64,000 bases of DNA from Permianibacter fluminis (GTDB lineage Bacteria; Pseudomonadota; Gammaproteobacteria; Enterobacterales; Permianibacteraceae). The notes beneath the pieces are model-generated. The model was not told the DNA's origin. It saw nothing but the letters and a program-made list of their open reading frames with translations, and did no database searches. Every line of letters begins with the position of its first letter. The first letter of the stretch is position 1. A program made the translations under genes and the position numbers. This document shows, in pieces, positions 14,293 to 26,460 of the stretch. The DNA is taken from the NCBI RefSeq assembly GCF_013179735.1, contig NZ_JABMEG010000001.1, positions 2,232,001 through 2,296,000 on the forward strand. Reading direction: 5' to 3'.

Positions 14293-17199
14293 ATGTTCGT
14301 TCCGGTTTTCGCGAGAGTTGTTACGGCGCTGGTCGCTGGCATGGCACTGCTGTCGGTGCTGGCGAGCGCGCCGGCCGCGGCACTGGAAGCGCAGGATATT
14401 GCGTTCTACTACGGTACCCGGCCGCCGGTTGATGCGCTGCGCCATTACGATCAGGTTGTCGTTCAGCCCAATCAGTTGCTGCCAGATGAAGCGGCGGCGC
14501 TCCTCGCCAGCGGGCCGCGCATTTTCGCCTATGTCTCGGTCGGCGAGGTGGCGCGCAACTCGGTGGATCTGGCCCGCATCGATCAGGGCTGGGTGATCGG
14601 CAACAACAGCACCTGGAACAGCCTGGTGATGGATCTGGCCGGTGCGGGCTGGCGCGAATTTCTGTTGCGCGAGCATTTCACGCCGCTCTGGCAGCAGGGT
14701 TATCGGGCCTTCTTTCTCGACACCATGGACAGCTACCTGCTGGCGGCCAAAGACGGCGCGCCGCGCCAGCGTCAGGAAGACGGCATGGTGGCGCTGCTGG
14801 CCGAAATCAAACAGCGTTTCCCCGGCGTACAGCTGATTTTCAACCGCGGTTTTGAATTGCTGGATCGCGATGCCCGTTATGCCGACGGCATTCTGGCCGA
14901 GTCGCTGTTTCAGGGTTATGACCCGGTCGCGAAAAAGCACGGCCCGACACCGGAAGCCAATCGGACCTGGCTTATCAGCCAGCTGCGCCGGGCCCGTGAT
15001 CAGTTCGGTATTCCGGTCACTGTCATCGATTACGTCGATCCGGGCGACTGGACCACCGCCGAAGCCACGGCGCGCAAGATTCTCGAACTGGGTTTCATGC
15101 CCTGGGTGGCCAACGGCGACTTGACCTGGCTTGGTCAGGGCCGCATCCGGCATGTGCCGCGCACCTTGTTGGCACTCATCGATGGTGGTGGCGACAGCGC
15201 CGGCGAAGGTCAGCTCGACAGCCCACTGTTCAAACATCTGGCCTTGCCGCTCGAGTACGAAGGTTACGCACTCGACTACCTGAATATCGAACAGGACCAG
15301 TTGCCGGGTGAGCCGCTGTTGGGCCGTTACGCGGGCGTGGTCAGCTGGCTCGGCGAGCGTTCCAGCGGCCAGCAGGCCGGGGTCTGCGCGCGCCTGCAGC
15401 CGGAAGTCAAAGTCGGTTTGCCGGTGGCGTTCTTCGGCAGTTTGCCGGCCGGGGCGGCGTGTCAGCAGTTGCTGGGCTATCAGCAGAACGGTCGCGCCGC
15501 CGGCACCGGTTTGCGCATCAGCGCGCAAGATCCGGCCATCGGCAAATTGGGCACGGCACCGGCGCTGCGGCAATGGGGTTTGCCGGACGTTCGGGTCGGC
15601 AACAGCAACCAGACCTGGCTGCAACTGACCGATGCCGGCGGCAACCAGTTTGATCCGATTCAGATCGGCAGTTTCGGTGGCCTCGCACTGCAACCCTATG
15701 TCATGCAATACGGTGCCGATGGCAGTGCCAGCTGGTTGCTGGATCCGTTTACGTTTTTGCGGGCCGCGCTGCGCTTGCCGGTGCAGCCGGCCTTTGAACT
15801 CAGCACCGACAATGGTCGCCGCATCGGTTTGATCGACATCCGTGGTGATCGCTTGGCCACGCCGACTGACAACGGTGAACGTGCCGCCGGCAAACTGCAG
15901 GAACTGCTGAGCAAAACGTCGTTGCCGGCGACGCTGGCCTTGATTGAGGCCGAATTCGACGCGCCGGGTTTGACCGACAGTGAACAGGCGCAGCGGCAAG
16001 CCGCGTTGAAACCGCTGCTGGAGTTGCCGCAGCTGGAACTGGCCGCCCACACCTATTCGCATCCGTATTTCTGGCCGGTGTTTGATGGCCAGCGCGATTA
16101 CAGCGCGCTGGCGCATTTGTACAGCGTGCAGATTCCGAATTACGCCGCCGATTTGCCGCGCGAAATTGCCAAGCCGTTCGACTGGCTCAATGGCCTGCAT
16201 CGGGAGACATCGAGTCGTTGGTTCGGCAATGCCGCGAGTACCCGCAATGCCGCGCTGCTGATCTGGTCCGGCGATGGCAAACCCGGGCCGGCGGCGCTCG
16301 CCACAGCGCAGCGCGCCGGTGTTGGTCATTACGGTGGCGGCGGCATTGACTGGCGATTCGGACCGCTGAAACTGGCGCAACTGGCGCCGGCAGCGCGGCC
16401 CACACGCTGGGGCACGCAAGTGCTGACGCCGCTGATAGACGAGAACAGTTTTGCCCGGCTCTGGTATGGCGAGGCGCTGAATTATCGCAAAGTGCTGGAC
16501 TGGAACCGGCAGCTCGGCGGTGGCAACAACGGTTTGGTGGGCGCGCGCCGGCTGAAGCCCTGGTCGCTGAGTTTTCACGCCGATGCCGTGCTGCGGCCAG
16601 CGGGCAGCGCGCTGTTGCACGAGTTGTTGACCGTGCAGGCGCAGGAGCCGTTGAATCATCTTTGGTTAAGCGAGTACGCGCAGCGGGTGCAGGCATTTCA
16701 GCACGCGAGTCTGGCGCGCGATCTCGATGGTCATTGGCGGGTCCAGGGCAATGGCCTGCACAGCCTGCGCATTCCGGCCAGCATGGGCTGGCCTGCCGCC
16801 AATGTGGCACTGGCTGGCGGCCACGAAGACAGCACTGGCCGCTATCTGCAACTCGGTGCGGATCAGGCGATCCTGCGTTTCAACGGCAAGACGCCGGAGT
16901 CGCTGTTGCTGGTCGATGCCAGTGCGCCGCTGAGCAGCTGGAGTCATGGCGATGACAACGACATCCGGTTTCGTTTTTCGCCGCGCGCCAGTGTCCAGTT
17001 CCGGATTCGCTTGCCGCGCAGTTGCCAATTGCAGCAGCACGGCAAAACGCTGAAAGCGCGCAGCGAAAATCCGCGCGCGGATACCGCTCGAACACAAACG
17101 TCGGCGGCCGTGAACAGCAATCGCAGTGAAGGGCTCAGCAGTTATGACTTGCGCGGTGATGCCGCGCTGGCGGAGGTTCAGCTTGTCTGCCCCCGCTAA
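14293..17199 (+). CDS. pelA: Pel polysaccharide hydrolase/deacetylase PelA
   Basis: A 968-residue secreted enzyme. The signal peptide ends near residue 32 (LSVLASAPAAA). A GH166-type glycosidase domain (about 35-290) has IAFYYG at its start and GILAESLFQGYDP, in which E203 corresponds to the likely catalytic Glu. A middle Rossmann-like region follows, then a polysaccharide deacetylase domain from about 500 with the metal-binding pair H586 and H590 (HTYSHPY). Where the DxD motif is expected the sequence reads DIRGD (515-519), so the first Asp of the pair is Arg517. In Pseudomonas PelA trims and deacetylates the Pel polymer in the periplasm. It is the first gene of the operon; the following gene overlaps its 3' end by 17 nt. 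Confidence 0.92.
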   Translation: MFVPVFARVVTALVAGMALLSVLASAPAAALEAQDIAFYYGTRPPVDALRHYDQVVVQPNQLLPDEAAALLASGPRIFAYVSVGEVARNSVDLARIDQGWVIGNNSTWNSLVMDLAGAGWREFLLREHFTPLWQQGYRAFFLDTMDSYLLAAKDGAPRQRQEDGMVALLAEIKQRFPGVQLIFNRGFELLDRDARYADGILAESLFQGYDPVAKKHGPTPEANRTWLISQLRRARDQFGIPVTVIDYVDPGDWTTAEATARKILELGFMPWVANGDLTWLGQGRIRHVPRTLLALIDGGGDSAGEGQLDSPLFKHLALPLEYEGYALDYLNIEQDQLPGEPLLGRYAGVVSWLGERSSGQQAGVCARLQPEVKVGLPVAFFGSLPAGAACQQLLGYQQNGRAAGTGLRISAQDPAIGKLGTAPALRQWGLPDVRVGNSNQTWLQLTDAGGNQFDPIQIGSFGGLALQPYVMQYGADGSASWLLDPFTFLRAALRLPVQPAFELSTDNGRRIGLIDIRGDRLATPTDNGERAAGKLQELLSKTSLPATLALIEAEFDAPGLTDSEQAQRQAALKPLLELPQLELAAHTYSHPYFWPVFDGQRDYSALAHLYSVQIPNYAADLPREIAKPFDWLNGLHRETSSRWFGNAASTRNAALLIWSGDGKPGPAALATAQRAGVGHYGGGGIDWRFGPLKLAQLAPAARPTRWGTQVLTPLIDENSFARLWYGEALNYRKVLDWNRQLGGGNNGLVGARRLKPWSLSFHADAVLRPAGSALLHELLTVQAQEPLNHLWLSEYAQRVQAFQHASLARDLDGHWRVQGNGLHSLRIPASMGWPAANVALAGGHEDSTGRYLQLGADQAILRFNGKTPESLLLVDASAPLSSWSHGDDNDIRFRFSPRASVQFRIRLPRSCQLQQHGKTLKARSENPRADTARTQTSAAVNSNRSEGLSSYDLRGDAALAEVQLVCPR

Positions 17200-20140
17200 C
17201 CGTCCCAATGCCGGTTTGCGCGGCGAACGCGAGTCGCTGCTGAACACGCCGGCCCTGCTGATCATGTCGGCGGTGGTGGTCATCGCGCTGTATGTGTTGT
17301 TTCCGCGCCAGCCCGCTTTTCGTGATCCGCAGAACCTGCGCGCCAGCGACGCCTTGTCCATTGCCTACCTGCGGGTGCTGGTGCGTTCCGACCCAGACAA
17401 CATTCCCCTGAGGCTGTCTTTTGTTCAGCTGTTGACCGAAGCCGGTGCCAACGATGAAGCGACCGAAGCGTTGGCACCACTGTTGGTCAAGGCGCCGCCC
17501 GAGCACGCATTTGAAATCGGTTTGGCAAAGACCCGGCTGCAATTGCAGTTGCTGTTTCTGGCGCCCGCAGCGGAGTCGGCGCAAGCCTTGCGCACTGATA
17601 TTGGTCGCGGCTTTGATCAGTTGCTGCCGTTGGCGCAGAAAGTCAGCGAGCAGGATTTACTGCTGGTAGAAGCGCGCAAATTTGGCGATCCGCGGGTGCT
17701 GGCGGCGCTCTATGAATCCCTGCTGGCACGCGTTGACAGCAGCGGACCGCGGCGCGGTCGGCTGCTCAGCGAAACCGCCGCGCTGCATCTGGCCGCCAAT
17801 CAACCGGGTGAAGCGGCACGGCGTTGGCAGCAGGCGTTTGCCTTGCTGGTCGACGCTGACGAGCAGCGCAACGTGGCGCTGTCATCACTGCGGGCATTTC
17901 TGGCAGCCGGCGAACCGGCGCAAGCGCTGACGGCAGCGAAACGGTTTTTGCACAAGCGGACAGCCGATGCCGAGTTGTTGGCGTTGGCGGCCGATATCGC
18001 CCAGCAAAATGGTGACGATGGCCAGGCCCTCAGCTGGTTGTATGCCTTGCGACCGTTGCAGCCGGAAGATCCGCAACTGACCGAGCGGCTGTTGGCACTG
18101 GAACTCGCGCTTGGCGATTTGCCGGCAGCGCTGCCGCTGGCGCGCGAGCTGACTACCGATGTTATCGCCGGTTCGCCGCGTCAGTGGTTGTTGGCGCGTG
18201 CATTCGACTGGAATGGTCTGCAGGCGGAAAGCCTCCCGCATTGGTTTGCGCTGGCCATGACCGCGCCGGATGAAGAAAGTGAAACGCGCGCCTTTGAGCT
18301 CGCTGTTGCGCTCAATGACGACGACAAGGTGGTGCAATTGGTCGAGGCAGCGGCGCTGCGGCGACCACTGCGTGGCAACGAAGCGGCTGCCTATGTCAGC
18401 AGTGGGTTGCGCACGCAGGAGCCGACCCGGTTGGTCGCAACCTTGCAAAACTATCTGCAACAGATTGATGCCGGCAGCACGGCAAACGGCGGCGCGAAAC
18501 CGGCACCGGATCGCGCGGCCTGGGTGGCGCTGGCACGCGTGCAACAGGCGCGCGGGGAACCGCTGGCTGCCCTGCAAGCCTGGCAGCGCGCCGAACAACT
18601 GGCGCCGCTGAAACCGACAGAACGTTTGGCCATCGCGCAGGCGTATTGGCGCAGCGGCCAAGCCGAGCCGGCACTGAACAGTTTGTTGCCATTGTCATCG
18701 GCACCACCCGCGGGCCAGGAAGCGCGCTACTGGCGCTTGCTCGCCGAGATTGCCTGGTCGCTGGAACGCAGCAACGTCACTCGCACCGCCTATCAGCAAT
18801 TGCTGGCGCGCTTTGCTGCCGATGACAAGCAAGCGATTGATCGGCTGCTGCAATTGGCCGAGCAAAGCGGTGATGTGGCGGCGACCGAGCGTCAGGCACT
18901 CTACGGCTGGAGCCGACTGCGCAGCCGGGAATATTTTGTCGAGCTGCTGGAGTTGGCGCATCAAGCCGGTGATAACGCCCGGCTCGATCAATTGCTGGCC
19001 GATGCCGAGCAACAACAAAGCCGTTTCGCCAAGGAGCCCCGTTACTGGCAATACCGGGCCGAGCGGGCGATGAGCCGTGGTGACATCGTGCTCGGCAAAT
19101 CGTCGCTGGAAAAACTGGCCGCGCTGCGGGCCAATGATCCGGAAGTCATTGAGGCCCAGTTGTGGGCGCTGCTGGCAGAATCGCCCGCCAGCAACCCGGC
19201 CATTTATCTGCTGATTGAGCGCTACGCCGGGCTGGCCGCTGGCGATCCGGTGCTGGCCGAAGCCATGGCGGCGGCCGAACAAACCTTGGGCCGACCGGCA
19301 GAAGCGGCGGTGTGGTATCTGCAAACCCTGCCGGCACGAAAACGCGATTTGCCGTGGCTGTTGACCGTTGCCGACAACCTGGAGTGGCTCGGCTGCACCG
19401 TTACCGCCAATCAATTCCGCTTGCGCAGTTTGCAGCAGTTGCAAGTGCAACCGGTGCCGTTCCCGGCCGTGGCGCATCCGGCCCGTTTGGCGGACTATTT
19501 CTATGGCCGGAAATTCTTTGCCCGCGATCTGGAAGAGGTGTTGCCGGAAGCCGAGGATTTTCGCGACCTGATTGAACAGTGGCAATTGCAAACCGGGCTC
19601 GACAATGCCCGCCAGTTTGCCTTGCACTGGCAGCAGAAACGCTTGACCCTTTCCGCGTGGGAAGATCTGGCAGACGAGTGGCAGGAACAGAACGGTCAGG
19701 AAATGGCCAAGATGATTCAGGCGCTCAGTGCCGAATTGCAGCTGGCGCCGGAAGGCCCATTGTCGAGCAATGTCTTGCCGCTCAGTTTGAATGACGTCGC
19801 GGCGCGCGCCCGGCGTTTCGGTGCCGGCCGCAGCGGTTCGTTGCCGGCGCCGGACCCGACGCGGGAATTGCCGATATGCCGGCAAACGCTGGAGCAGTTC
19901 TCGGCCTTGGCACTGCCTCTGCCAGTGCTGGCGGTGCCAAGGCCTGCTGTTGCCGCAACGACAAATGCATCGACAAATGAAACGTTTAATGCGACGTCTA
20001 CTGCAACAACAATCACAGCGACAACTGCAGCCAGATCAGCCGCTACAACGATATCTGTTGCAACAACAACACCAACAGCAACACAAACCACAGCACAAAC
20101 AACAACTCAAACAACAACGCCAACAACGGTGAAACCATGA
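17183..20140 (+). CDS. pelB: PelB-like TPR protein lacking the C-terminal barrel
   Basis: A 985-residue protein with one N-terminal membrane helix (LLIMSAVVVIALYVLFP) followed by many tetratricopeptide-like helical repeats up to about residue 900. This matches the membrane anchor and TPR scaffold of PelB. In Pseudomonas, PelB is about 1190 residues and ends in a 16-stranded outer-membrane barrel. Here the helical region is followed by about 60 Thr-rich residues (924-985, roughly 28 Thr) and the stop, with no beta-barrel-like sequence. The start is TTG at 17183, six nt after a GGAGG ribosome site and overlapping pelA. The last 4 nt overlap pelD (ATGA). The name rests on position and TPR layout, so it is best read as PelB-like. 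Confidence 0.75.
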   Translation: MSAPANRPNAGLRGERESLLNTPALLIMSAVVVIALYVLFPRQPAFRDPQNLRASDALSIAYLRVLVRSDPDNIPLRLSFVQLLTEAGANDEATEALAPLLVKAPPEHAFEIGLAKTRLQLQLLFLAPAAESAQALRTDIGRGFDQLLPLAQKVSEQDLLLVEARKFGDPRVLAALYESLLARVDSSGPRRGRLLSETAALHLAANQPGEAARRWQQAFALLVDADEQRNVALSSLRAFLAAGEPAQALTAAKRFLHKRTADAELLALAADIAQQNGDDGQALSWLYALRPLQPEDPQLTERLLALELALGDLPAALPLARELTTDVIAGSPRQWLLARAFDWNGLQAESLPHWFALAMTAPDEESETRAFELAVALNDDDKVVQLVEAAALRRPLRGNEAAAYVSSGLRTQEPTRLVATLQNYLQQIDAGSTANGGAKPAPDRAAWVALARVQQARGEPLAALQAWQRAEQLAPLKPTERLAIAQAYWRSGQAEPALNSLLPLSSAPPAGQEARYWRLLAEIAWSLERSNVTRTAYQQLLARFAADDKQAIDRLLQLAEQSGDVAATERQALYGWSRLRSREYFVELLELAHQAGDNARLDQLLADAEQQQSRFAKEPRYWQYRAERAMSRGDIVLGKSSLEKLAALRANDPEVIEAQLWALLAESPASNPAIYLLIERYAGLAAGDPVLAEAMAAAEQTLGRPAEAAVWYLQTLPARKRDLPWLLTVADNLEWLGCTVTANQFRLRSLQQLQVQPVPFPAVAHPARLADYFYGRKFFARDLEEVLPEAEDFRDLIEQWQLQTGLDNARQFALHWQQKRLTLSAWEDLADEWQEQNGQEMAKMIQALSAELQLAPEGPLSSNVLPLSLNDVAARARRFGAGRSGSLPAPDPTRELPICRQTLEQFSALALPLPVLAVPRPAVAATTNASTNETFNATSTATTITATTAARSAATTISVATTTPTATQTTAQTTTQTTTPTTVKP

Positions 20141-21411
20141 GATTACCTTGGCTCGATTCGGTCGATGGCCTCGATGTGCGCACTGCGCCGTCGGATCGCT
20201 GGATGTGGCTGGAGACCCTGGTGCTGACGGTGGCGGCGCTGGCGCTGTCGGCCTGGAGCAATCCGCAAGATCCGTTGCGGGTGCAGAGTGGTTTTCCGTG
20301 GCCGCTGCTCGGCCCGGTGCTGGCCGGTTTGCGTTACGGTTTCGCGGCCGGTTTTGTCAGCGCCTTGCTGGTGTTGGCTACGTTGGGCATTTCCATCAAT
20401 CGTGGCTGGCAGCCCGCCGCGGCGTTTCCGTTGGCCTGGGCGACTGGTGTGGTCGCGCTTGCGATGGTGTGCGGTGAATTTCGCGACGGCTGGCAGCGCC
20501 GTCTGGTGCGGCTGGCGGGCGCCAATCGTTACCGCGCCGAGCGTCTGGAAGAATTCACCCGCAGTTATCACTTGCTGCGGGTTTCCCATGATCGACTGGA
20601 GCAAGCGCTGGCCGGTGCTGGCCATTCTCTGCGCGAAGCCCTGACCCGACTGGCCCAGCGTTTTGATCCGGGCCAAGGCTTGACGGAGCTTGCCGCCAAT
20701 CGCTTGCTCGAATTGCTGGCGCATTACGGCGCGTTGCAGCAAGCGGGTCTGTTCGCGGTAACCGAAGATGGTCGCTGCACCGGCGAGGCGTTGGCGCAGT
20801 GGGGCAAGCTGGCGCGCATTTCAGCCACCGATCCCTTGTTACTGCAGGCGCTGCAACGCGCCGAGCTGGTTGCGGTCAATGCCGACAATGCCCAATTGGA
20901 AGCGGCGCGCCACAGCGAGTTGTTGGCCGTGGTGCCCTTGGTCGACAGCAGCGGCCGCATTCATGCCGTGCTGGCCATCGCCGCGTTGCCGTTTTTTTCC
21001 TTCCAGCAAAACACACTGACATTGCTGACCGTGTTATGCGCACACGCCGCCGATTTGTTGACCGGCGCCGGCAAGCCCGGCAGCGATGACAGTTTCTCGC
21101 GGCAATTGGCGCGGGCGCTGAAAGATCAGGAAGACTATGGTTTGCCGGCAAGCCTGGTGCAGGTCACCGTGGCCGGCACTGAGGGCCAGCAATGGTGCGC
21201 ACTGGCACGTCGTGAGCGCCGCGCGCTGGATCTGTGGCGCGAACGCGGCGATGAACTGACCATTTTGTTGCCGCTGACCGATGTCAGTGGCGGCGAGCAG
21301 TGGTTGCAGCGTTTGCGTGAGCTGGGCGCGCCGGCGCTGTCGGTGCGCTGTCTGGCGCTGGACAACGCCAGCGCGGCGCAAGCATTGTTGCCGATGGCGG
21401 GTGCGCACTGA
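20137..21411 (+). CDS. pelD: c-di-GMP receptor PelD
   Basis: A 424-residue inner-membrane protein that activates Pel synthesis on binding c-di-GMP. Four N-terminal helices (about 22-115) are followed by a short coiled coil, a GAF domain (about 160-320) and a degenerate GGDEF domain. R362-A-L-D365 provides the RxxD inhibitory-site motif used by Pseudomonas PelD to bind c-di-GMP, and no GGDEF catalytic motif is present. The start overlaps pelB by 4 nt and the stop overlaps pelE (TGATG), so translation is coupled. Slightly shorter than the Pseudomonas protein (about 455). Confidence 0.92.
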   Translation: MRLPWLDSVDGLDVRTAPSDRWMWLETLVLTVAALALSAWSNPQDPLRVQSGFPWPLLGPVLAGLRYGFAAGFVSALLVLATLGISINRGWQPAAAFPLAWATGVVALAMVCGEFRDGWQRRLVRLAGANRYRAERLEEFTRSYHLLRVSHDRLEQALAGAGHSLREALTRLAQRFDPGQGLTELAANRLLELLAHYGALQQAGLFAVTEDGRCTGEALAQWGKLARISATDPLLLQALQRAELVAVNADNAQLEAARHSELLAVVPLVDSSGRIHAVLAIAALPFFSFQQNTLTLLTVLCAHAADLLTGAGKPGSDDSFSRQLARALKDQEDYGLPASLVQVTVAGTEGQQWCALARRERRALDLWRERGDELTILLPLTDVSGGEQWLQRLRELGAPALSVRCLALDNASAAQALLPMAGAH

Positions 21412-22433
21412 TGTCGCGGCTCTGGTGGACGGTAGCGCTGGCGCTCGAACTCGCCAGCGTGGTGGCCGTCATGTTGCTGGAGCCGGCGTGGTTGGCGCTG
21501 CTTGGCTATGCCGTGTTGCATGCCGCCGCGACGCCGATGCTGGCCCGCGCCTGCTGGCATCTGTTGCCTCGGCGTTATCGCTTGCCGGTCAATCGCAGCA
21601 TGCAATTTCTGCAAGGCATGTTGCTGCTGATGCCGTTGGTCGGCGCGATCGGTTTGCTCTGGGGCTTGGTCGGTGCGCTGCGTTTGCCGCGCTCGCGCCG
21701 CTCACTGAGTCTGCGTTTTGTTGGCGTGCCCGAGTTGCCGTTCCAGCCGCCACAGGTGTTTCCGACTCCGCCTTACAGCAGCGGTGCGTTGCGCCAGATT
21801 TTGCGTTTTTCCGACAATCCGTTGAAACGGCTGAAAGCGGTGATGGCCACGCGCCATATGCCGGTGCACGAGTCGGTGCCGATCTGGCAGATAGCCCTGA
21901 AAGATCGCGTCGATGATGTCCGTTTGCTGGCCTACGCCATGCTCGACGGTCGGGAAAAATTGCTGACCGAACGCATCCAGGAAATCAGTGCCGAACTGGA
22001 CGAGTTGCCAGTGCCACGTCGTGCCGACGCGCATCGCCAACTGGCCGGTTGCTGCTGGGAGTTGGTGTACAACGGTCTGGTCCAGGGCGCGGTGCGCGAG
22101 CACTGGCTCAATGCCGCGCGTCAGCATGCCGAGTTGGCGTTGGCCGGTCAGCGCGATATCGCGCTGAGCGTGTTGCATGTCCGCATTCTGCTGGCACAGG
22201 ATGCGTTGGAAGAAGCGGCGCAGGCGTTGACTGCCGCTGCGGCCACCGGCGTTGCGGCATCGGTGCTGGCGCCCTGGCACGCGGAGATTGCGTTTCGGCA
22301 GCGGCGCTTCGCCGAGATTCCGGCGCTGCTTGCTGAGGATCAGCGCCACGTTGAACAGGGATCGGCACAGGCGGAAGTGCGACGCTGGTGGTGCCCGGTG
22401 ACGGAACCTGCGCTGCAGGAGCAACAGCCATGA
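21411..22433 (+). CDS. pelE: Pel synthase membrane protein PelE
   Basis: A 340-residue protein with two or three N-terminal membrane helices (for example VVAVMLLEPAWLALLGYAVL and LQGMLLLMPLVGAIGLLWGL) and a cytoplasmic helical-repeat region from about residue 120. This is the layout of PelE, which joins PelD, PelF and PelG in the inner-membrane synthase complex. Sequence conservation of PelE is low, so the call depends on topology, length and position between pelD and pelF. It overlaps pelD by 1 nt and pelF by 4 nt. Confidence 0.85.
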   Translation: MSRLWWTVALALELASVVAVMLLEPAWLALLGYAVLHAAATPMLARACWHLLPRRYRLPVNRSMQFLQGMLLLMPLVGAIGLLWGLVGALRLPRSRRSLSLRFVGVPELPFQPPQVFPTPPYSSGALRQILRFSDNPLKRLKAVMATRHMPVHESVPIWQIALKDRVDDVRLLAYAMLDGREKLLTERIQEISAELDELPVPRRADAHRQLAGCCWELVYNGLVQGAVREHWLNAARQHAELALAGQRDIALSVLHVRILLAQDALEEAAQALTAAAATGVAASVLAPWHAEIAFRQRRFAEIPALLAEDQRHVEQGSAQAEVRRWWCPVTEPALQEQQP

Positions 22434-24061
22434 GCCGCGCATTCGAACAAAATCAACGTGGCACCGGTGTCAACGCTGCTGCCGGTAATGCCGCCAATGC
22501 CGATTCCGCTGCTGCCGGTTCTTGTGTTGCAGATATCGCACTGCTACTTGAGGGCACCTACCCATATGTGCGCGGCGGGGTGTCGAGCTGGGTGCATCAA
22601 ATCATCAGCGGTTTGCCGGAGTTTCGCTTTGCGGTGATTTTTGTCGGCGGCGAACCGTCGTTGTATGGTAAAGCCCAGTACACGTTTCCGCCGAATGTCA
22701 GTCATTTTGAAACGCACTATCTGCTCGACAACAGTGCGCACACGCCGAAGCCGCGCCGAGGCGATCCGGCGGCGTTTGCCGAGATGGCGGCGCTGCACGA
22801 ACAGATGCGCGCCAGCGCCAGTTGTCCGCACGGTGCCGGCAAGGTCGGGTTGTCGCTGGATGATATGCTGAACGCCTTTGCCCGCCTGGGTGGGGAAGGT
22901 GGTATCAGCAAGACCGACTTTCTGTTTTCGGAAGCGGCTTACGATTACATCAGCCAGCAGTATCGCGAGCGCTGCACCGAGCCATCGTTCGTCGATTACT
23001 TCTGGGCCGTGCGCACCATGCATACGCCGCTGTTTGTGCTCGCCGACATCGCCCGCAAATTGCCACCGGTGCGGATGGTGCATTCCATCTCGACCGGTTA
23101 TGCCGGCCTGCTCGGTGCGATGATTCGCCTGCAACGTCATATCCCATTCGCCCTGACCGAGCACGGCATTTACACCAAGGAGCGCAAGATCGATTTGGCG
23201 CAGGCCACCTGGATCCGCGATCACAACGATGACGTCAGCAACACCTTGCATGACGAGATGGGCTATATCCGCGGCATGTGGATCAAATTCTTTGAGCAAA
23301 TCGGCCGCATTGCCTATTCGCAGGCTCAGCCGATCGTTTCGCTGTACGAAGGTAACCGCGAGCGGCAGATTGCCGACGGCGCCATTGCCGAGCGCACTCA
23401 GGTGATCACTAACGGCATCAATCTGCAGCGTTATGCCACCGCCTTACAGAAGCGCCCGAGCGGCATTCCACCGGTGCTCGGTCTGATCGGCCGCGTGGTG
23501 CCCATCAAGGACATCAAGACGTTTATTCGCACCATGCGGATATTGGCCAATGCGCGCCCTGATGCCGAGGGCTGGATTGTCGGTCCGGAAGATGAAGACC
23601 TGAGTTACGTCCAGGAATGCAAGGATCTGGTCGACAGTCTCGGCTTGCAACGCAACGTCAAGTTTCTCGGCTTTCAGAATGTCGCCGAAATTCTGCCGCA
23701 GCTCGGCTTGATGGTGCTGACCTCGATCAGCGAGGCCTTGCCGCTGGTGATTCTGGAAGCGTTCGCCAGCGGCGTGCCCTGCGTTGCCACCGATGTCGGT
23801 TCCTGTCGGGAGTTGATTGAAGGCAGCACCGCCGAAGACAAAGCCATGGGCAGTGCCGGTGCGGTGGTTGCGATCGCCGATCCGGAAAGCACGGCGCAAG
23901 CGGCATTGGCGTTGCTCAATGATCCGGAGCGCTGGCAGTCGGCGCAGCGGGCCGGCTTGCAACGGGTGGAAAAGTATTATGACGATCGGATGATGTTCGG
24001 CGCCTATCGCGAGTTGTATCAGGCGACGCTCGCATCCGCTTCAGCGTTGAGTGCGGAGTAA
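22430..24061 (+). CDS. pelF: Pel glycosyltransferase PelF
   Basis: A 543-residue cytosolic GT4-family glycosyltransferase that polymerises the Pel chain from UDP-sugars. The N-terminal domain begins IALLLEGTYPYVRGGVSSWV, typical of PelF. The C-terminal nucleotide-sugar domain has GLIGRVVPIKDIKTF and the E-x7-E signature (SEALPLVILEAF). The first 30 residues are Ala/Asn-rich and not conserved. I chose the ATG at 22430, which overlaps the pelE stop and has a GCAGGAG site upstream. Confidence 0.94.
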   Translation: MSRAFEQNQRGTGVNAAAGNAANADSAAAGSCVADIALLLEGTYPYVRGGVSSWVHQIISGLPEFRFAVIFVGGEPSLYGKAQYTFPPNVSHFETHYLLDNSAHTPKPRRGDPAAFAEMAALHEQMRASASCPHGAGKVGLSLDDMLNAFARLGGEGGISKTDFLFSEAAYDYISQQYRERCTEPSFVDYFWAVRTMHTPLFVLADIARKLPPVRMVHSISTGYAGLLGAMIRLQRHIPFALTEHGIYTKERKIDLAQATWIRDHNDDVSNTLHDEMGYIRGMWIKFFEQIGRIAYSQAQPIVSLYEGNRERQIADGAIAERTQVITNGINLQRYATALQKRPSGIPPVLGLIGRVVPIKDIKTFIRTMRILANARPDAEGWIVGPEDEDLSYVQECKDLVDSLGLQRNVKFLGFQNVAEILPQLGLMVLTSISEALPLVILEAFASGVPCVATDVGSCRELIEGSTAEDKAMGSAGAVVAIADPESTAQAALALLNDPERWQSAQRAGLQRVEKYYDDRMMFGAYRELYQATLASASALSAE

Positions 24062-24064
24062 GCC

Positions 24065-25435
24065 ATGGCCGGTATCGGGTTTGAAATCCGCCGCATTCTG
24101 GAGCGCGACAGTTTTTTTGCCGTGCTGAAAGCGTATGGCTACGCCGGGCTTATCAGTGGCGGCCCGTGGGTACTGTCCATTCTCGGGGTCATGGCCATTG
24201 GTTTGCTGTCGGTGGCACTCGGCACGGAACAGCAGGCGGTCAACCAATTCCAGATCTGCGTGACCTATCTGATGGCGGGCTCGCTGATTCTGACCGGCGG
24301 TTTGCAACTGATGTTCACCCGCTTCGTGGCCGATCGGCTTTATGCCCACGAGCCGCGGATTGTGCTGCCGAATCTGCTCGGTGCCTTGTTGCTGACCACG
24401 GCGGTCGCAGCGGCGCTGTCGACCCTGTTTGTACTGGTGGCGTTTTCCGGCAGTGCCTTGCTGCGGTTGTTGCTGATCGCCAATTTTGTCGTGGTCTGCA
24501 ATTTATGGCTGGTGCTGATCTTCCTGTCTGGCATGAAAGCGTATCAACGTATTGTCCGGACGCTGGCCGCCGGTTATCTGTTGGCCATTCTGGTCTCGAT
24601 GGCTCTGGCCGGTTTTGGTCTGGAAGGTTTGCTGACCGGCATCCTGATTGGCCATGCCGGGCTGTTGTTTGCCTTTCTGCATCACGTTGTCCGTGAGTAT
24701 CCGGGTCAGTCGCTGCTACGGTTTGATTTTCTCGATCAGCGCAAGGCGTTCTACAGTCTGTTTGCCATGGGCGTGCTGTACAACCTCGCGGTCTGGGTCG
24801 ACAAGTTCATTTTCTGGTTTGTGCCGTACACTTCGGAAGCCGTTATCGGCCCGCTGCGGGCATCGATTATTTATGACTTGCCGATTTTCCTCGCTTACCT
24901 CTTCATTTTGCCCGGCATGGCGGTGTTCCTGGTCCGGATGGAAGCGGATTTCGCCGAGCAATATGATCGCTTTTATCGCGCCGTGCGCGAAGGCGATACG
25001 CTGATGCATATCGAGTACCGCAAGGATCAGATGGTCTACACCGCACGTCAGGGCATCTACGAAATCTTCAAGGTTCAGGGCCTGACAGTCGTACTCTGCC
25101 TGCTCTGGGGTCGCGATCTGCTGCATGCGATTGGGATTTCGCCGCTTTACATACACCTGTTCTATATCGACATCGTCGCGGTCAGCGTGCAGGTGCTGCT
25201 GATGGCCATTCTGAACGTGATGTTCTACCTTGATGCCCGTCGCGAAGTCTTGATGCTGTCGGCAGTATTTCTGATCAGCAACATCGTGTTCACGCTGGCG
25301 ACACTGAGCTTGGGTGCAGAAACCTTTGGCTATGGTTTCGCCCTGTCGGTAACACTGACCGCCTTCCTCGGCTTCTTCGTGCTGGCACGCAAGCTGCGGC
25401 GACTGGAGTACGAAACGTTTATGCTGCAGCGCTGA
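24065..25435 (+). CDS. pelG: Pel inner-membrane transporter PelG
   Basis: A 456-residue polytopic protein with about 12 membrane helices, of the MATE/Wzx-like fold, that forms the inner-membrane channel of the Pel synthase. The N-terminus MAGIGFEIRRILERDSFFA is diagnostic for PelG. It starts 3 nt after pelF and is of standard length. It is the last recognised pel gene here, and no pelC occurs anywhere in the operon. Confidence 0.94.
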   Translation: MAGIGFEIRRILERDSFFAVLKAYGYAGLISGGPWVLSILGVMAIGLLSVALGTEQQAVNQFQICVTYLMAGSLILTGGLQLMFTRFVADRLYAHEPRIVLPNLLGALLLTTAVAAALSTLFVLVAFSGSALLRLLLIANFVVVCNLWLVLIFLSGMKAYQRIVRTLAAGYLLAILVSMALAGFGLEGLLTGILIGHAGLLFAFLHHVVREYPGQSLLRFDFLDQRKAFYSLFAMGVLYNLAVWVDKFIFWFVPYTSEAVIGPLRASIIYDLPIFLAYLFILPGMAVFLVRMEADFAEQYDRFYRAVREGDTLMHIEYRKDQMVYTARQGIYEIFKVQGLTVVLCLLWGRDLLHAIGISPLYIHLFYIDIVAVSVQVLLMAILNVMFYLDARREVLMLSAVFLISNIVFTLATLSLGAETFGYGFALSVTLTAFLGFFVLARKLRRLEYETFMLQR

Positions 25436-25443
25436 GTGTGCTT

Positions 25444-26460
25444 ATGTTGAAGTCATGGCTTTGGTTGTTTGCGGCAGTATCGATGGCGGCGCTCGCGGCT
25501 GACGAGCTGCCGGTTCCGCTGGATAATTATCTCAATGACTATGCCGTCCTGCTGACGGAAGCTGAACAGGCCGAGCTGCGTGAACAAGGCAGGCAGTTGG
25601 AGGCGAGCACAGGTGTCGAATTAAGCGTGGTGCTGATCGACCGAATCGGCGATTACAGCGAAGACACCAATATTGAACGCTTCGCCACTCGGCTGTTCGA
25701 TAGCTGGGGCGTCGGTAATACGGAACTCAATGACGGCATTTTGCTGTTGGTGGCGCGTGATGATCGGGCGGTTCGCATCGAACTCGGTGCCGGCTATGGC
25801 CATGACCATGATAGCGAGATGCAGCGCATCGTTGATGAGTTGCTGGTGCCGGCATTTCGCCAGAGCCGCTATTTCGATGGCCTGCAAGCCGGTTCCGGCG
25901 CGTTGGTGCAATTCGCTGAAGACTGGGCAGCGCTGCGTGCCAATGACTCTTGGTGGCTGCGGGCTTGGCTCAAATTCAAAGCGGGAATGCGCTCGTTGTG
26001 GGCCAAGCTCGCTTTGCCGGCTGGCGCCGGCGGCATCGGCTGGCAATGGTTTCGACGTTGGCGTCGTCATCAAGCCCGCCAATGCCGGCAATGTCAGGCT
26101 GCCATGGTGCGATTGTCGGAAGTCGCCGACGATCGTTATCTCGAGGCCGGCCAAAAAACCGAGGAGCGAGTGGGCTCGGTGGATTATGACGTTTGGAAGT
26201 GCACGCGCTGCGCTGCCTATCACGTGATCGACTACCCGAGTTTGTTGACCCGGTTTCATCGCTGCGACGGCTGCGGGCGGCGCACCAGTCAGCAGCAATC
26301 ACGCTCAGTGATTGGCAATCAGGTCACAACGACATTCCGCTGTCGGCACTGTCAGCATATTCAACAAACCTTCTCAACGGTGCGGGAATCGACTTCTGGC
26401 GCAAGCGCGGGCTTTGGCGGAGGCAGTTCGGGCGGAGGTGGTGCGACCGGCCGTTGGTAG
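25444..26460 (+). CDS. TPM-domain protein with C-terminal zinc ribbons
   Basis: A 338-residue exported or membrane protein. A signal-like helix (WLWLFAAVSMAALAA) is followed by a TPM domain (about 20-165; LSVVLIDRIGDYS, WGVGNTELNDGILLLVARDD). A weakly hydrophobic basic stretch (residues 180-210) follows. Two zinc-ribbon units come next, with Cys pairs CRQC, CTRC, CDGC and CRHC, and the protein ends in a Gly/Ser tail (GGGSSGGGGATGRW) usual in YgcG-type proteins. It begins 8 nt after pelG (a GTG at 25438 is the alternative start), so it is probably cotranscribed with pel. TPM proteins have been linked to phosphatase or protein-quality roles; the function here is unknown. Confidence 0.8.
   Translation: MLKSWLWLFAAVSMAALAADELPVPLDNYLNDYAVLLTEAEQAELREQGRQLEASTGVELSVVLIDRIGDYSEDTNIERFATRLFDSWGVGNTELNDGILLLVARDDRAVRIELGAGYGHDHDSEMQRIVDELLVPAFRQSRYFDGLQAGSGALVQFAEDWAALRANDSWWLRAWLKFKAGMRSLWAKLALPAGAGGIGWQWFRRWRRHQARQCRQCQAAMVRLSEVADDRYLEAGQKTEERVGSVDYDVWKCTRCAAYHVIDYPSLLTRFHRCDGCGRRTSQQQSRSVIGNQVTTTFRCRHCQHIQQTFSTVRESTSGASAGFGGGSSGGGGATGRW

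Follow-up and report, generated by a model that had tools for sequence, protein, structure and literature searches.

The window analysed here is a stretch of 64,000 nucleotides from Permianibacter fluminis (NCBI RefSeq assembly GCF_013179735.1, contig NZ_JABMEG010000001.1, positions 2,232,001 to 2,296,000 of the forward strand); coordinates below are those of the window. At positions 14,293 to 25,435 it carries a pel operon in which pelC is missing, the PelB-like protein ends without an outer-membrane barrel, and the putative catalytic base of the PelA deacetylase (D528 in P. aeruginosa) is replaced by arginine. Loss of the barrel, loss of PelC and replacement of both D528 (by Arg) and H526 (by Asp or Glu) coincide in one clade of operons. 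As barrel, PelC and deacetylase base were all looked for and not found, the operon is considered a variant of Pel, and not a canonical exopolysaccharide system; its synthesis half works like Pel. The reading favoured here, to which a probability of about 0.42 is assigned, is that of a Pel-derived operon which has lost the module for charging and exporting the polymer; its product would be a neutral N-acetylgalactosamine (GalNAc) glycan, held in the periplasm or envelope, or released as short pieces.

Operon layout and missing exit parts

The six pel genes lie on the same strand, overlapping or nearly touching. They are listed below, along with the altered motif of PelA; TPR indicates tetratricopeptide repeats and c-di-GMP cyclic di-GMP.

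14293..17199, + strand: pelA, periplasmic GH166 hydrolase with a CE21 deacetylase domain; phmmer match to the solved PelA 9cgy, E 6.5e-117
15835..15849, + strand: altered deacetylase motif, pelA codons 515-519; the equivalents of P. aeruginosa H526, D528 and D530 are Asp, Arg and Asp
17183..20140, + strand: pelB-like; N-terminal hydrophobic helix, TPR superhelix, part of the alpha-rich region, Thr-rich tail
20137..21411, + strand: pelD, c-di-GMP receptor with RALD as its RxxD I-site; PF16963; PDB 4dmz, E 9.6e-33
21411..22433, + strand: pelE, assigned by position and by phmmer similarity to PelE of the congener and of Nitrosospira
22430..24061 (ATG 22430), + strand: pelF, GT4 polymerase; NF038011, 763 bits
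24065..25435, + strand: pelG, inner-membrane exporter; PF16933, 502 bits

Overlaps measure 17 nucleotides between pelA and pelB, 4 between pelB and pelD, 1 between pelD and pelE and 4 between pelE and pelF, while pelF and pelG are separated by 3 nucleotides. The initial annotation had described the order as uninterrupted, with no PelC between pelB and pelD: there is indeed no room for an extra gene and, since pelB and pelD overlap, no pelC lies between them. Read from the sequence, the start of pelB is most likely the TTG at 17183, preceded by GGAGG, and the 985 codons counted from it agree with the length first reported. PelE produced nothing above cut-off against Pfam. PF11394 is Tla3_N and not a Pel family. 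A genome-wide search found one PelG only in the window genome (G000).

The PelB-like protein matched only repeat-type (TPR) models in the Pfam scan (TPR_15, E 3.2e-35); PF24604, the PelB barrel model, was matched by all three canonical PelBs given to a similar scan and not by the window protein. The structure prediction proposed for it at the outset was run with AlphaFold and contains helices only, with no strand of at least three residues (mean predicted local distance difference test score, pLDDT, 73.6; predicted TM score 0.46; residues 911-984 under 50), so that the claim of a PelB without a barrel stands. The protein aligns to residues 12-726 of the 1193 of P. aeruginosa PelB. In a profile comparison with canonical PelB, the match runs through the TPRs (Prob 100) and on to about the middle of the alpha-rich region (Prob 88.6, E 2.7e-6, 83 columns), then ends: the barrel, and the segment before it, are therefore gone, not hidden. 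In P. aeruginosa, according to an excerpt of PMC12141448, two TPRs and a stalk helix within the PelC ring make up the end of this region. About 150 residues past the TPRs are conserved across the 13 aligned PelBs of the clade. The N-terminal hydrophobic helix is a probable inner-membrane anchor, as suggested by alignment, hydrophobicity and analogy with P. aeruginosa PelB. Foldseek, used with the PelB model, returned unrelated TPR-type proteins, mostly from eukaryotic complexes (query TM 0.15-0.24), and a first scan of genome contigs with the PelB-like protein as query found no relatives.

The Thr-rich end of PelB, also pointed out in the initial annotation, is real (28 Thr among the last 72 residues), but specific to the window genome: it is absent from the 12 aligned relatives, the congener and 11 Nitrosospira and Nitrosovibrio proteins, and is therefore incidental and outside the variant. 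On the same grounds it was ruled out as a substitute exit.

PelC and the barrel were then sought with PF24604 and a profile of 33 PelCs in 17 genomes, a set to which the genome of locus L028 does not belong; control genomes G016, G070 and G071 were matched in both searches. The genome-wide search proposed for PelC and for a stand-alone barrel gave no match at E<=1 to either model in the window genome, the assembly of which is 99.48% complete. The congener (G001) gave no PelC match and one barrel match (E 0.3) with two in-frame stops; in 8 of the 11 Nitrosospira/Nitrosovibrio genomes neither part scores above threshold. Sub-threshold matches in clade genomes are limited to the barrel at E 0.03-0.31 (G060, G063, G061, G001) and to PelC at E 0.12 (G059). 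The weak barrel matches disappear with a second barrel profile of 34 rows (A5) at E<=0.1, which matched nothing in the window genome, the congener and those eight genomes, while matching controls G065 and G016. BcsC and PgaA barrels were found in none of the same ten genomes; the E. coli control was matched.

The remaining three Nitrosospira/Nitrosovibrio genomes (G065, G066, G068) contain strong PelC and PelB barrel matches elsewhere. In G068 (locus L131) and G065 (locus L132) these belong to a further pel locus, where 3.4-5.5 kb separate pelB and pelC. L132 has a pelA after pelG, and in the PelG tree it branches far from the first locus. This second locus looks like an independent acquisition, not a duplicate.

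The PelA deacetylase base

The replaced base in PelA is the strongest clue in this analysis; it is new here, the initial annotation having made no mention of it. Residues 35-923 of the 968 of window PelA align to solved PelA 9cgy, as does the canonical PelA of locus L005, and the AlphaFold model (pLDDT 80.8) superimposes on 9cgy with VIA Z 38.5 and a root mean square deviation of 2.5 over 804 residues. The MT1 motif, usually H-x-D-x-D, is D515-x-R517-x-D519 in the window. Counts refer to 72 of the 83 loci (the window and L004-L085); 11 loci without a PelA frame longer than 700 aa were dropped (L011, L032, L033, L037, L038, L040, L044, L046, L067, L070, L072). The position of D528 is Arg in all 13 clade PelAs and Asp in all 59 others. 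The position of H526 is acidic throughout the clade, Asp in the window and Glu in the other 12, while it is His in 58 of the 59 others (Ser in L039).

Both catalytic residues of the GH166 hydrolase are retained in 13 of 13: D160 (D143 in the window) and E218 (E203 in the window), the latter named in published PelA work.

Conservation has also shifted between the two domains. CE21 is better conserved than GH166 in 1635 of 1653 pairs of canonical PelAs and in none of the 78 clade pairs; when disjoint pairs are taken, the figures are 26 of 29 and 0 of 6 (Fisher p 5e-5). This comparison includes 58 of the 59 canonical rows, L025 having too few hydrolase columns.

The functional meaning of these positions is described in PMC12022489, where D528 is the putative catalytic base, H526 its activator, D530, H600 and H604 the metal ligands, and H761 the acid, with E723; no esterase activity was detectable with Ala at the equivalents of D528, D530, H600 or H604 (PtPelA D517A corresponds to D528). 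In P. aeruginosa, D528A by itself abolishes extracellular Pel, and the clade is therefore read as a Pel branch without the charge-and-export module. Section 8 of PMC12022489 describes the deacetylase residues as a conserved feature of the homologues, and adds that species carrying a pel operon could depend on the activities: judged from its residues, clade PelA is an exception to that conservation.

Loss of PelC alone was also considered as a cause of the PelA change, and ruled out: genome G227 gives no PelC match, yet its HIDGD motif is intact.

Distribution, origin and selection

The layout of the window is repeated in the congener, the one other genome of the genus searched. A pattern scan of 84,980 species genomes, based on a PelF alignment, gave 403 relatives, of which the best 80 were kept as loci; among these, the twelve closest belong to Nitrosospira and Nitrosovibrio. 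The 11 complete loci all have the layout of the window, with a PelB of 899-925 aa; in the twelfth, L011, a contig end cuts off everything before part of pelD, and this locus does not enter the PelA and PelB counts. Barrel and PelC are thus missing from the operon in all 13 complete clade loci. PelC is present in 61 of the other 68 named loci; the seven without it are L023, L043, L072 and four loci that begin within the operon at a contig end, L038, L040, L044 and L070. An assembly or sequencing fault was ruled out by the repetition of the layout in the congener and the 11 complete loci. The survey of related species, suggested at the outset, thus bears out the original view of a variant of a known system: as indicated by loci, trees and substitution rates, it is conserved and selected, and not a local defect.

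In a sample of the class, PelG was found in 24 of 369 genomes. Among the 23 besides the window genome, 17 match the PelB barrel (16 above cut-off) and 19 PelC; the PelG genomes with neither are three, from one genus. The gene combination of the window is rare in this sample.

The 14 barrel-less operons group together as a single clade (SH-aLRT 100) in a tree of 84 PelG rows, where canonical operons, for the most part from Gammaproteobacteria, surround them. A concatenated tree of PelA, B, D, E, F and G (22 rows) supports the clade with 100/100; the window branches first, followed by the congener with Nitrosospira. A grouping of window and congener, defined only once the PelG tree was known, is rejected by the approximately unbiased test (p-AU 2e-71). 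PelG of G016, a genome of the same order as the window, groups with Pseudoalteromonas. The position of a single clade among canonical pel operons argues for one loss, followed by transfer to ammonia-oxidisers; by the trees, the operon moved between the lineage of the window genus and betaproteobacterial nitrifiers, probably from the former to the latter.

Selection was evaluated by the ratio of non-synonymous to synonymous rates (omega, dN/dS). Over the six genes omega is 0.03-0.32 in seven Nitrosospira pairs, with 0.12-0.13 for PelB. The comparison of window and congener gives higher values, 0.12-0.43, at a near-saturated dS; dN/dS is undefined because of saturation for all or most genes in three of the six canonical pairs. 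The RxxD motif of PelD is present in all 14 members of the clade.

Other unusual loci were encountered. L147 and L149 (G122 and G260, two of the three genomes of one genus mentioned above) contain pelD, pelE, pelF and a very distant PelG; pelA, pelB and pelC were not found in 19 kb, and the genome-wide barrel and PelC searches gave no match. This is another reduced Pel-like cluster. In L145 (G227) pelB is split in two (820 and 542 aa) and there is no PelC match. L146 and L148 (G282 and G382) carry pelC-like genes as a tandem pair, and PF24604 is not matched there at E<=0.001. Next to the window operon, a gene for a TPM-domain (PF04536) protein with a Gly-rich tail (25438-26460) starts 2 nucleotides past pelG. 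It is found at the same place in the congener (L004, 3745-4797), where its frame overlaps the end of pelG, and not beside pelG in the seven Nitrosospira/Nitrosovibrio loci with flanks listed; in the window genus it is possibly co-transcribed with pel.

Product of the operon and known systems

Missing from the operon are the PelC ring, the base of the PelA deacetylase together with its helper residue, and the stretch of PelB that runs from midway in the alpha-rich part to the end of the barrel. On this reading it retains a synthase, PelDEFG, that is switched by c-di-GMP, a TPR guide with its anchor, and the hydrolase of PelA. In such a system, the polymer would enter the periplasm as neutral alpha-1,4-GalNAc, would be deacetylated hardly or not at all, and would be trimmed by the hydrolase; it would then stay as a periplasmic or envelope glycan, or leak out as short pieces. 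The probable product is a neutral GalNAc glycan, most likely located in the periplasm, with an unlinked exit as a close rival. The available portions of PMC12022489 and PMC12141448 describe PelC and the interior of the PelB barrel as an acidic path for cationic Pel, so that a neutral polymer might not need them.

Several observations weigh against this reading. The aspartates of PelC, once seen as a charge funnel, are given a mainly structural role in part of PMC12141448, which weakens the electrostatic argument for PelC. The net charge of the PelB TPRs does not clearly set the clade (mean -1.43 per 100 aa, sd 0.69, n=13) apart from the other proteins (-0.71, sd 2.48, n=55), contrary to what is expected of a polymer no longer cationic. 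A TPR guide of about 700 residues is unexpected in a system that sends nothing across the outer membrane. Moreover, the CE21 metal ligands D530, H600 and H604 are retained, with E723, in all 13 clade PelAs, and the acid H761 in 12 (Asn in L006); the deacetylase domain is under purifying selection (omega 0.06-0.15 in seven Nitrosospira/Nitrosovibrio pairs) and therefore retains some role, which could be structural or could involve a base at another position. Some deacetylase activity may thus persist with a relocated base. Finally, possible unlinked exits are available: OPX (PF02563) and Alginate_exp (PF13372) are present in 10 of 10 clade genomes searched, compared with 4 and 1, respectively, of 14 control genomes, all distant, which serve as background.

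This last observation supports the main rival explanation, export through an unlinked outer-membrane channel of the OPX/Wza or alginate-export type, to which the conserved C-terminal helices of the truncated PelB would dock. The conservation of the residues past the TPRs, some of which are homologous to the N-terminal half of the canonical alpha-rich domain, fits with it, as does an orthologous AlgE-type gene common to window genome and congener (28% identity, E 7e-40). This shared gene, however, reaches only 32 and 40 bits to PF13372, with a partial match, and the AlgE-type genes of both genomes sit, by eye, among seemingly unrelated genes. All three OPX genes of the two genomes adjoin a Wzz gene, one being also near an exosortase, and therefore have partners of their own. 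Nor does any outer-membrane gene adjoin the operon in common, as judged by eye in the window, L004 and seven Nitrosospira/Nitrosovibrio loci: a resistance-nodulation-division (RND) efflux set with a TolC-type protein (PF00873, PF02321) lies at least 1.7 kb after pelG in L008 (N. multiformis), and a similar set was seen by eye in L010, but not in the other five listed loci. Alternatively, the deacetylase may have been rewired, with the acidic residue at 526 replacing D528 as base, Arg528 positioning it, and the deacetylated polymer exiting by an unknown route. The fixation of D/E-x-R in 13 of 13, the conserved metal triad and acid, and the intact overall fold of the PelA model agree with such a change; it is made rather doubtful by the loss of activity of PtPelA with Ala at the D528 equivalent, as given in part of PMC12022489, and by the drop of CE21 conservation below that of GH166.

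The two other explanations are far less probable. That the operon is a decaying remnant without function might be suggested by the loss of two exit parts and one catalytic residue, and by the higher omega of the window-congener pair; yet all six frames are open in the 13 complete loci, the Nitrosospira pairs are constrained in every gene, PelB included, RxxD is invariant in PelD, and the operon was retained after transfer between distant lineages. This explanation is very improbable and largely refuted. Least credible of all is an exit provided in trans by a second, canonical pel locus: it could be envisaged for the three nitrifier genomes with PelC and a barrel, two of which hold such a locus, but the window genome, the congener and the other eight genomes have neither part above threshold, and the window genome has a single PelG. 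For the window genome it is refuted, unless the locus falls in the missing part of the assembly.

Reading the operon as one without charging and export leads to a broader, tentative proposal, doubtful enough to be put forward with reserve: a Pel machine that secreted a cationic biofilm polymer may have been converted into one that makes, under c-di-GMP control, a neutral, hydrolase-trimmed GalNAc glycan for the periplasm. It would have arisen once, when deacetylation and outer-membrane export were lost together, probably in a lineage of Gammaproteobacteria, and would then have spread to ammonia-oxidising Nitrosospira. If true, regulated periplasmic glycan systems would gain a new class. In any case the clade offers a natural test of the coupling between deacetylation and export in Pel, as base, PelC ring and barrel are gone together and the rest is under selection. 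Earlier Pel censuses used PelC as query, according to an excerpt of PMC7112168, and would have missed the barrel-less clade. If the product is periplasmic, the possession of pel genes no longer equals secretion of Pel, soil nitrifiers included.

A search of the open-licence literature returned no description of a barrel-less Gram-negative pel operon. A related case is the pel duplication of N. multiformis, part of a published network and reported in the legend of Fig. 5ii of PMC7112194: one of the two operons is probably of the present type. The available part of that paper treats the case as duplication, with gain and loss of loci and pelA rearrangement, and in that part no discussion was found of barrel or PelC loss, PelA residues or origin. 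The name 'pelADEFG' is used elsewhere in the literature for Gram-positive Paenibacillus and for expression in P. aeruginosa.

Other systems share single features with the operon described here. The Gram-positive pelDEADAFG operon of Bacillus cereus also synthesizes Pel without PelC and PelB barrel; as presented in a portion of PMC7112168, it has a deacetylase-only PelA, a separate hydrolase and no outer membrane, whereas the present operon encodes a two-domain PelA without the deacetylase base and still includes the TPR protein, in a genome that contains outer-membrane genes of the OPX and AlgE types. The pelADEFG of candidate phylum KSB1 clade IV, in the gene list extracted from PMC9012183, is also without pelB and pelC; unlike the present case, pelB is not listed at all, and the lipopolysaccharide genes of other clades are missing; that source gives no residues of PelA. 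The split-pelB operon of G227, comparable to the 'pelB fission' mentioned in part of PMC7112194, is similar in that PelC was not detected; it differs in its pelB in two pieces, in the intact HIDGD, and in a weak barrel match in the second piece (18.9 bits; none with profile A5). Alphaproteobacterial cellulose operons without BcsC, described in the same partial source, are likewise synthase-dependent systems without outer-membrane porin, but concern another polymer and other enzymes, and the source mentions no modifying enzyme with a lost residue. With canonical pelABCDEFG of P. aeruginosa, finally, the operon shares the two-enzyme fold of PelA, the anchor and TPRs of PelB, the RxxD of PelD, PelE, PelF, PelG and the gene order; it differs in having no PelC, no PelB barrel and an alpha-rich region cut down to its first part, with D528 changed to Arg, H526 to Asp or Glu, and conservation shifted to the hydrolase.

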